A DNA stretch of 64,000 nt from Chlorobiaceae bacterium (GTDB lineage Bacteria; Bacteroidota; Chlorobiia; Chlorobiales; Chlorobiaceae), in contig JAAXXR010000002.1 of assembly GCA_013334335.1 (NCBI GenBank), positions 19,126 to 83,125 on the forward strand, given 5' to 3'. The notes under the pieces were generated by a model. The model worked only from the letters and a program-made list of their open reading frames with translations. It made no database searches and was not told the DNA's origin. This document shows, piece after piece, positions 46,408 through 64,000 of this stretch. The position numbers and the translations under genes were made by a program. Position 1 is the first letter of the stretch; every line of letters begins with the position of its first letter.

Positions 46408-48036
46408 TCAGGTCCTGAATTTGCGGTAATCGATGTCGAACTTCTTCATCCGCAGTCCCATGATCCTGTCGGACAGTCCAAGCTGTGCAGCAGCTCGTGA
46501 CATATTGCCCTTGGTACGTTTGAGCGCTTCGATGATCATTTCGTTTTCGATGGCGTCGAGTTTCTGCTGGAGGGAACCGGTGTAGGGGGTTCCGCTCGAC
46601 TCGGCCGTCTGGAGCGATGGCGGCAGATGGTAGCCGTGGATGACGTTGTCCTCGCTCAGGATGACCGCCCGTTCGATGCAGTTCTGAAGCTCCCTTACGT
46701 TGCCAGGCCAGTGGTAGCGAACGAGCATGTCGATGGCGGTTGTGGAGATGCGCCGTATTCCCTTGTGGTTCAGCGTGTTGAACTTTTCCACAAAGTAGTC
46801 GGCCAACAGCATGATGTCGGTTTTCCGCTCCCGGAGGGATGGCACGGTGATCGGGAAGATGTTCAGCCGGTAGTAGAGGTCTTCGCGGAACGCCCCCTCC
46901 CGTATCTGCTCCTCAAGGCTCCGGTTCGTGGCCGCAATGATTCGGACATCGGTTTTGATCGTTTTTGTGCCTCCCAGCCGCTCGAACTCCTTTTCCTGGA
47001 TGATCCTCAACAGTTTCGCCTGGACCGTCAGGCTCAGTTCACCTACCTCGTCCAGGAAGATCGAGCCTCCGTCGGCGAGCTCGAAGCGTCCCTGACGTTG
47101 GGATGCGGCTCCCGTGAAGGCTCCTCGTTCATGGCCGAACAGCTCGCTCTCGACAATGCTTTCAGGGAGGGCCGCGCAGTTGAACTTGATGAATGGCTTG
47201 CCGACCCTGAGGCTTTTGAAGTGTATGGCATTGGCCACGAGCTCCTTGCCGACCCCGCTTTCACCAAGGACGAGGGCCGTGGCGCTGGTGCGGGCAATCT
47301 TGTCGATCATCTTGAAAAGCGAGAGCATCGGCTTTGAATTGCCGATGATGTTTGCCGGCCGTTCGGTCTCGTCGATCTCCTCGTCGATCTCGTCTTCGCC
47401 AGCGCTCTGGGCCGGAATGTGGATGGTCGGAGCTGACGGACGCGGTGAGATCGACTTCTCTTCTGCGGCGAGCTGCTTGAGCCTTACCGCCTGCGAGATC
47501 ATGGCCCCGATGATGGAGAGCAGGTCGACGTAGTACTGGAGCGTATCTTTGCGGAGCTCCTCGGCTTTGCTTTTCCTGCCCGATCCGTTGTCGGCAGGCG
47601 CCGAGAGCCGCCGGTCGGCGCTCAGCGTGCCGATCACCTCGACTCCGGCCTTGATCGGCACGCAGATGAAGCAGAGTTCCTCCTTCTTTTCCTTCGATCT
47701 TGAACCGGTCCGGTCAAGGAATAGCGGCTCCTCGTTGATTCGTGGCACGATCGCCGGCTTGCCGCTTTTGACCACTTTGCCGATGATGCCTTCGCCGATC
47801 TTGTACCGGCCTCTCTGGCTCTCCGTTTCGGTCAGTCCGAATGATTCGTTGATGACGATTTCGCTGGTGTCCCTGTTCAGAATGGTAACCATGCCCCGAA
47901 GCATATTCATATGCTCCGACAGGATGAACAGCACGAGCCGGAGGACCTTGCTTATGTCCTCTTCGTTGTTGACCGTCCTGCTCACTTCCGCGAGAAGGCT
48001 GATGCTGCTTTGTTCCTGCTGATGTGATATGAGCAT
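46408..48036 (-). CDS. nifA: Sigma-54-dependent activator NifA (GAF-AAA-Fis)
   Basis: 542 aa; GAF N-terminus, GESGVGKELVANAIHFKS, GAFTGA motif, C-terminal HTH KGNMSRAAAQLGLSDRIMGLRMKKFDID; adjacent to nifV. Confidence 0.88.
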   Translation of the reverse strand: MLISHQQEQSSISLLAEVSRTVNNEEDISKVLRLVLFILSEHMNMLRGMVTILNRDTSEIVINESFGLTETESQRGRYKIGEGIIGKVVKSGKPAIVPRINEEPLFLDRTGSRSKEKKEELCFICVPIKAGVEVIGTLSADRRLSAPADNGSGRKSKAEELRKDTLQYYVDLLSIIGAMISQAVRLKQLAAEEKSISPRPSAPTIHIPAQSAGEDEIDEEIDETERPANIIGNSKPMLSLFKMIDKIARTSATALVLGESGVGKELVANAIHFKSLRVGKPFIKFNCAALPESIVESELFGHERGAFTGAASQRQGRFELADGGSIFLDEVGELSLTVQAKLLRIIQEKEFERLGGTKTIKTDVRIIAATNRSLEEQIREGAFREDLYYRLNIFPITVPSLRERKTDIMLLADYFVEKFNTLNHKGIRRISTTAIDMLVRYHWPGNVRELQNCIERAVILSEDNVIHGYHLPPSLQTAESSGTPYTGSLQQKLDAIENEMIIEALKRTKGNMSRAAAQLGLSDRIMGLRMKKFDIDYRKFRT

Positions 48037-63160: not shown

Positions 63161-63214
63161 TGTCTCATATTGCGATAATTGTCTCATAATAAAACAAATA
63201 TTCTCACATTGAGA
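63161..63214. promoter_or_regulatory. Putative enhancer: phased TCTCA elements
   Basis: TGTCTCA at 63161 and 63180, ATTCTCA at 63200 (19 and 20 bp apart); third is a palindrome TCTCA-CAT-TGAGA, first TCTCA-TAT-TGCGA. Confidence 0.45.
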
Positions 63215-63313
63215 TTATTTGTTGCACTCAGGGATACATTGACATTTATATACATTTCCTATAAGTACATGTAATTGTTATACATAACTGCGTTGGTGTT
63301 TTATTCTGTGTTC

Positions 63314-63329
63314 TGGCATACATATTGCA
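63314..63329 (+). promoter_or_regulatory. Sigma-54 promoter for sRNA copy 1
   Basis: TGGCAT-ACATA-TTGCA. Confidence 0.75.
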
Positions 63330-63339
63330 CAATTATTAT

Positions 63340-63430
63340 TGGTCTGCACAGTAACGTCTTGCGCAAGTAAGGCGGAACAGGTGAAATGGGGGACACCTGT
63401 TCACTAAAAAGCGGTCTCAAGCCGCTTTTT
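63340..63430 (+). ncRNA. Chlorobi-1-like sRNA, copy 1
   Basis: Stem 1 cgtctt/aaggcg, stem 2 gaacaggtg/cacctgttc with AAATGGGGGA loop, terminator aaaaagcgg/ccgcttttt. Confidence 0.8.
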
Positions 63431-63529
63431 CATGCAGACCAAATTTTATGATAGGTTGTTGTTCAGCAACGTTGACAGGGTTTTATCGTTCCAGGCAAGG
63501 GCCGGAACGGGTATCTTGAGTCATAGCTA

Positions 63530-63620
63530 CCTATAGATGAGCTGTCTCGTGCAAGCGAGACTGGGCAGGTGAAATGGGGGACACCTGTCCACAAAAGAAG
63601 CGGCTTTGCCGCTTTTTTTG
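63530..63620 (+). ncRNA. Chlorobi-1-like sRNA, copy 2 (5' end approximate)
   Basis: Stem 1 gtctcg/cgagac, stem 2 gggcaggtg/cacctgtcc with AAATGGGGGA loop, terminator aagcggc/gccgctt plus T7. Confidence 0.78.
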
Positions 63621-63729
63621 TTGTATACCACGCTTCTTTTCCGACTTCAGTACCGTTCAGATGAGCAGTAGCTCCATGAAGCGGACCCATCATTCCACGG
63701 TTTCATTTTTTGCTGGTTGTATTTCTTTA

Positions 63730-63757
63730 TGAGACACCTTTGCGTCGAATTGAGACA
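63730..63757. promoter_or_regulatory. Putative enhancer: two TGAGACA elements
   Basis: TGAGACA at 63730-63736 and 63751-63757, 21 bp apart; reverse complement of the TGTCTCA elements at 63161. Confidence 0.4.
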
Positions 63758-63854
63758 TGCCGAAACAGCCATGCGTGCGGGCCTTCGGGTGGTTGTGTCT
63801 GAAAAGCGTTGCTGGGTAAAGGTTTACAGCAGTTCCAGGAAAGCGTCTGCCAAC

Positions 63855-63870
63855 TGGCAGGCTTCTTGCA
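63855..63870 (+). promoter_or_regulatory. Sigma-54 promoter for sRNA copy 3
   Basis: TGGCAG-GCTTC-TTGCA; same 42-nt offset to stem 1 as copy 1. Confidence 0.75.
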
Positions 63871-63880
63871 CCACTACTGT

Positions 63881-63973
63881 TGAATTGTCAAGAAATGTCT
63901 CGCGCCAGTGAGGCTCGGCAGGTGAATGGGGGTCACCTGCCAACAAAAAAAGCGGCTTTTGCCGCTTTTTTTG
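63881..63973 (+). ncRNA. Chlorobi-1-like sRNA, copy 3
   Basis: Stem 1 gtctc/gaggc, stem 2 ggcaggtga/tcacctgcc with ATGGGGG loop, terminator aagcggc/gccgctt plus long T tract. Confidence 0.8.
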
Positions 63974-64000
63974 TTGGATCGGTCAATGTCCGCCGGTCGG

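Follow-up and report, generated by a model that had tools for sequence, protein, structure and literature searches.

The Qrr sRNAs of Vibrio depend on both sigma-54 and Hfq. They are sibling RNAs encoded by scattered genes, activated by the response regulator LuxO, and they repress the mRNA of this same activator (PMC4211561). The array of small RNAs described here, from a green sulfur bacterium, resembles them by sequence in having sigma-54 promoters with upstream enhancer sites. Complementarity to the mRNA of the putative activator (hereafter E3) is seen in genus g2 and not in the array's own genus. On the other hand, the array is tandem, its copies match Rfam family RF01696 (Chlorobi-1) and not the Rfam Qrr family, E3 scores 342 bits against a LuxO cut-off of 800, and Hfq was not found in the genome. 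To our knowledge, PrrF1, PrrF2, and PrrH of Pseudomonas aeruginosa are not controlled by sigma-54. These RNAs are likewise tandem siblings, and read-through yields a double RNA, but they are under iron and haem control (PMC4211561). Pxr of myxobacteria is a multi-hairpin sRNA with a sigma-54 promoter whose tandem paralogues each have a sigma-54 promoter of their own; it differs in belonging to an unrelated lineage, in adjoining the regulator nla19, and in controlling fruiting-body development (PMC5568312). In Aquincola, the PrsK-PrsR/RpoN system places PEP-CTERM and aggregation genes under sigma-54 control (PMC9850573); E3, at 386 bits, falls below the cut-off of the PrsR model (TIGR02915, 502.6), and we found no publication linking an sRNA to this system. 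Sponges of the CsrB/RsmZ type differ in that CsrA was not found in our genome. The RNA chaperone search covered Hfq and CsrA and gave no match in this genome to PF17209 (control search positive in E. coli) or to PF02599 (same search positive in E. coli, B. subtilis, and T. maritima). Chlorobi-1 itself was described as two stem-loops followed by a terminator and listed as an RNA that is neither a cis element nor a switch (Weinberg et al. 2010, PMC2864571). The main text of that article mentions neither sigma-54 control nor an enhancer, activator, or target for it; the family is already known and functionally orphan, and we found no description of its control.

The analyzed stretch of 64,000 nucleotides (the window) had been proposed in an initial annotation to end in three tandem Chlorobi-1 copies. 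A cmscan run bore this out with three RF01696 matches above the gathering cut-off of 50; no other Rfam family reached its gathering score. All lie on the forward strand. Copy 1 (A type, 63341-63440; cmscan 63351-63416, 66.2 bits; fold z -7.5) comprises stem-loop 1 (63355-63374), stem-loop 2 (63375-63402, with GGGGG at 63388-63392), and a terminator-like hairpin (63406-63430), and is additionally enclosed by a closing stem of 8 bp, previously overlooked, in which 63341-63348 pairs with 63433-63440. Copy 2 (B type, 63539-63626; cmscan 63539-63605, 59.9 bits; fold z -5.8) has its stem-loops at 63544-63561 and 63563-63590 (GGGGG at 63576-63580) and its terminator at 63591-63621, while in copy 3 (63881-63978; cmscan 63892-63957, 63.5 bits; fold z -5.9) they are found at 63897-63914 and 63917-63941 (GGGGG at 63928-63932), followed by a terminator at 63942-63975. 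The anatomy first proposed, namely stem 1, stem 2 with a ..AATGGGGG.. loop, a GC-rich terminator, and a T tract, was thus recovered, except that loop 1 is a tetraloop (GCAA/GCCA) in the covariance model instead of 8 nt long. The compensatory changes noted between copies also stand, with U-A in copy 1 becoming C-G in copies 2 and 3 in stem 1, and A-U/G-U/G-C followed by A-U/G-C/G-C at the next outer pair of stem 2 (copies 1/2/3). Upstream, an agmatine deiminase family gene (PF04371, 62085-63131, forward strand) is a conserved neighbor that fixes the locus. The contig ends at 64000, about 25 nt past the terminator of copy 3, and so stops before the convergent malate dehydrogenase gene (mdh) that lies downstream of the array in relatives. 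Neighboring genes were rejected as cis targets since the downstream gene is convergent.

Our comparison covered about 100 genomes of green sulfur bacteria. A Chlorobi-1 match was found in 47 of the 99 genomes of the class (39 above the cut-off), often as two to four copies in tandem, in agreement with the proposed multi-copy regulatory sRNA. Across 82 copies, two-sided changes affected 24 of 26 base pairs, and the covariation score was 0.388 compared to 0.184 in shuffles, none of 500 shuffles scoring as high; the claim of selection on RNA structure is upheld. Both stems vary freely in sequence, whereas in loop 2 GGGG is invariant and UGGGGGA nearly so. Because the loop stays invariant while both stems change, it is taken as the working part of the molecule, as had been suspected of the G-rich loop. 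Copies of families f2-f4 (L083-L092) keep the UGGGGGA loop without a sigma-54 promoter, which indicates that the function of the loop is older than sigma-54 control. Kissing between loops 1 and 2 (GCCC/GGGG) was discarded as a general feature, as many g1 copies have a GCAA/GAAA loop 1, and a small ORF (ATG-GGG-GAC) was rejected since its ATG is not conserved outside f1.

Promoters were scored over the 70 nt upstream of each copy against TTGGCACG-N4-TTGC, out of 12. At least 10/12 was reached by 53 of the 85 f1 copies, 13 of them perfect, where about 0.4 would be expected (background 0.005 per 70 nt), and by none of the ten copies outside f1. Most of these f1 promoters keep a fixed distance from the RNA motif, lying either 11-12 or 18-23 nt ahead of it. 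In the window, copy 1 is preceded by CTGGCATACATATTGC (63313-63328, forward strand, 9/12), a score that is weak alone (10 of 100 shuffles were as good) but supported by the same position in relatives, and copy 3 by CTGGCAGGCTTCTTGC (63854-63869, forward strand, 10/12). No sigma-54 promoter of its own was found upstream of copy 2, nor were sigma-70 promoters found near the copies. In pairs of copies from the window's genus, the first carries a promoter and the 8-bp closing stem, which starts within one base of the predicted transcription start (63341), and the second has a strong terminator and no promoter. Pairing in the closing stem, as read from the loci, is kept by two-sided changes between species (GGUCUGCA/UGCAGACC, GGUCUGCA/UGCAGGCC, GUCCUGUA/UGCAGGAC), with a mismatch in a few copies. 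The first copies of G009 (L076) have lost the terminator hairpin and must therefore be read through into the second copies. Judging from this arrangement, copy 2 is probably co-transcribed with copy 1 as one unit, with copy 3 forming a second.

Most f1 arrays occupy one conserved place, in the order menA, N-carbamoylputrescine amidase family, M48 peptidase, agmatine deiminase family (aguA), one to four RNAs, and mdh, the latter named by eye. Among the RNA-less f1 genomes for which this place was fetched, aguA and mdh are in most nearly adjacent, separated by a short spacer, often a terminator alone, in which no array-type promoter or enhancer site was found; in some, other sequence lies between the two genes. 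As read from these loci, the module of RNAs, promoters, and enhancer is gained and lost as a unit. Such block gain and loss at one site, together with the variable tandem copy number, would also suit cis elements or mobile structured repeats devoid of trans function. We regard that as very improbable, given that the copies have their own terminators and a promoter at a fixed distance from the RNA 5' end, that the downstream gene is convergent, and that the 634-base stretch holding the array showed no spread through its own genome.

Upstream of the promoters lie putative enhancer sites. Two direct TGTCTCA half-sites (63161-63167 and 63180-63186, forward strand) and an imperfect palindrome, TCTCA-CAT-TGAGA (63202-63214), precede the unit of copies 1 and 2, and two half-sites on the reverse strand (63730-63736 and 63751-63757) precede copy 3. 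The palindrome was read by eye, and its N3 form recurs at other g1 loci. In 14.6 kb of array intergenic DNA, TGTCTCA/TGAGACA was observed 47 times compared to 1.9 in shuffles (about 25-fold), with spacings near multiples of 10 bp, and the full site resembles TGTCTCA-N3-TGAGACA.

The genome encodes seven clear sigma-54 activators. Five of these, other than E7 and NifA, were profiled by their non-AAA parts, completely except for E4 and E6. E1 and E5 occur in nearly all genomes regardless of the array. E3 does track it: an NtrC-type response regulator (REC, Sigma54_activat, and Fis HTH domains; PF00072, PF00158, and PF02954) encoded outside the window next to the chlorosome gene csmH (L095/L143), with AtoC, NtrC, and then PrsR as best-scoring models. 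The chlorosome gene beside E3 marks the host as a green sulfur bacterium. Orthologues were called at a receiver-domain identity of at least 47% together with frame length. In g1, E3 is present in all six array genomes and in none without the array. In g2 it follows the array with four exceptions, namely G042 (86% complete), where the array is present and E3 was not found, and G023, G027, and G041, a single clade with E3 and no array. Over 58 genomes, the counts for both, array only, E3 only, and neither were 29, 1, 3, and 25, so that E3 occurs in 29/30 RNA-bearing and 3/28 RNA-less genomes (Fisher p 6e-12, a value that overstates the independence of the genomes). On a malate dehydrogenase tree of these genomes, four independent pairs on supported branches (eight on all branches) differ in the array; E3 changes in the same way in 3.6 of the four on average and never in the opposite way, which is too few pairs for significance by a sign test. 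G021 and G011 each seem to have lost both array and E3 recently, in separate events. An E3-like gene is more divergent in G035, G039, G043, G044, and G077, where it may not be the same gene.

As an independent search, one half-site followed after 91-121 nt by a sigma-54 promoter was sought in 73 genomes. This pattern occurred at 29 places in 24 of the 38 genomes with E3 and at none in the 35 genomes without it (p 8.5e-10). Since it was designed on the array and on sites of E3-bearing genomes, its informative parts are the zero in genomes without E3 and the places outside the array. The latter precede an inositol-phosphatase family gene (adjoining a sugar nucleotidyltransferase), an SLBB export gene, a polysaccharide deacetylase, TpsA adhesin genes, LapA-type retention-module proteins, and two PEP-CTERM proteins; TpsB and an SLBB/Wzz operon were additionally found by searching for the palindrome. 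A place inside a gene in G033 is probably due to chance. Because these places precede surface genes, the array seems to be among the outputs of a surface-matrix regulon, and the RNAs may have a role in surface attachment. The search also bears on the idea that another enhancer-binding protein activates the RNAs, for instance NifA, which would tie them to nitrogen fixation. NifA sites are TGT-N10-ACA. The full site found here (TGT-N11-ACA) resembles them, and a NifA-like protein is encoded in the window (46408-48036, reverse strand), about 15 kb from the array. Yet the site-plus-promoter arrangement is missing from all 35 genomes without E3, where nif promoters are expected, and, among the five profiled activators, E1 and E5 do not follow the array, which makes this explanation quite improbable. 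The chain from sigma-54 promoter through E3 to sRNA is strongly supported by these genome comparisons, and we infer that E3 activates the array directly.

For the targets of the RNAs, the best-supported candidate is the E3 mRNA itself, in genus g2. In the first seven g2 genomes, every E3 leader had a CCCC tract within the 50 nt before the start, as did 9.5% of the 919 other gene starts compared. When 51 gene families were ranked by their pairing with the sRNA loop, E3 came first. Further genomes were fetched as a test, and a loop-matching C-tract was found in the E3 leader of 23/23 g2 array genomes with a canonical E3. The longest match, CCCCCAUUA, is 9 bp (G072) and lies just upstream of AAAAAGGA; in G050 the longest counted match is inside the E3 gene, but a CCCC tract is present in the leader too. 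Duplex energies averaged -12.3 kcal/mol for g2 E3 leaders and -9.3 for 1111 other gene starts (rank test p 5e-10, the leaders being orthologues and hence not independent), and no other part of the sRNA paired nearly as well as the loop windows. The three E3-bearing genomes without the array keep a shorter tract (UCCCC). No C-tract was found in the E3 leaders of the window's own genome and genus, nor in the five RNA-bearing genomes with a divergent E3-like gene, and loop pairing to the starts of the regulon genes gave nothing notable. Repression of the E3 leader by the sRNA is thus a supported prediction for g2 only, presumably acting on translation.

In six g1 genomes, exact 9-nt loop complements were neither enriched nor conserved. 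Each genome had about 4-7 of them outside the array, a number close to that of the reversed control, and no orthologous gene was matched twice in sense; the one shared match (L170, L184) was rejected because it is a ribosome-binding site, G-rich and oriented in the wrong sense. This lack of enrichment is what one would expect if the RNAs, still driven by E3 and sigma-54, acted as a sponge whose G-rich loop binds a protein, the E3 leader match being a coincidence of C-rich leaders. Protein-binding hairpins also show an invariant loop on drifting stems. We nevertheless consider a sponge unlikely, as it gives no reason to expect C-tracts at one site in all 23 g2 leaders, and CsrA, the classic candidate, was not found in the genome. 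In G009, G013, G016, and G018, the g1 leaders (L145-L148) contain, further upstream of E3, a hairpin whose loop is C-rich. This hairpin is absent in the window's genome; it is a possible kissing partner of the sRNA loop.

Taken together, we favor as the probable reading that all three RNAs act in trans as antisense sRNAs and owe their transcription to sigma-54 promoters. E3, a response regulator of the phosphorylation type, would bind TGTCTCA/TGAGACA and switch them on, copies 1 and 2 as one transcription unit and copy 3 as another, while also driving exopolysaccharide, adhesin, and PEP-CTERM genes elsewhere in the genome. Once E3 is active, the RNAs would build up and present the invariant UGGGGG loop for pairing with C-rich mRNA leaders, and in g2 with the E3 mRNA just 5' of its start codon, producing negative feedback as Qrr does on luxO. 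The likeness to Qrr drawn in the initial annotation is apt in that sigma-54 promoters precede copies, an NtrC-type activator co-occurs with them, and in g2 their loop matches the leader of the activator mRNA. More tentatively, at slightly less than an even chance, a Qrr-like circuit may have arisen independently in green sulfur bacteria without Hfq, with E3 co-activating a surface-matrix regulon and loop-seeded sRNAs that repress E3, and with copy pairs being made as one two-headed RNA in the window's genus; sRNA and target would then pair without Hfq. Chlorobi-1, without a function since 2010, is hereby given a predicted sigma factor, activator, binding site, set of co-regulated genes, and first target. 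If true, small RNAs would here form a control circuit in an organism whose genome yielded neither Hfq nor CsrA, and the circuit would offer a way into the regulation of surface attachment and aggregation in green sulfur bacteria.

Several additional observations were made. The NifA-like activator of the window scores 509.7 bits against a cut-off of 528.85 and adjoins a homocitrate-synthase-like gene. Two loci (L303, L309) encode small secreted proteins of no known family directly under predicted E3-type promoters. Reading of the loci also revealed more array copies missed by the covariance model (L079, at G016:C28 ~24671, and L081), one of them with a degenerate loop, AATGGGAGA. Loop 2 is shortened (TGTTGGGGGACA) in some array copies (L043, L044, L045, L053, L060, and L069), and most genomes with the shortened loop also carry the divergent E3-like gene. 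A fourth, weaker Chlorobi-1 copy in the window's genome (G000:C30:12181-12245, L033; 50.0 bits) represents a second, single-copy paralogue class (relatives L068, L071, L077, L080, and L082) with the loop CCGTGGGGGAAC, no sigma-54 promoter, and a conserved neighborhood, found only in the six array-bearing g1 genomes. A third class (L037, L039, and L074) has the stem GCATGCG, again without a sigma-54 promoter, and lies near a flavocytochrome-c-like gene recognized by eye.
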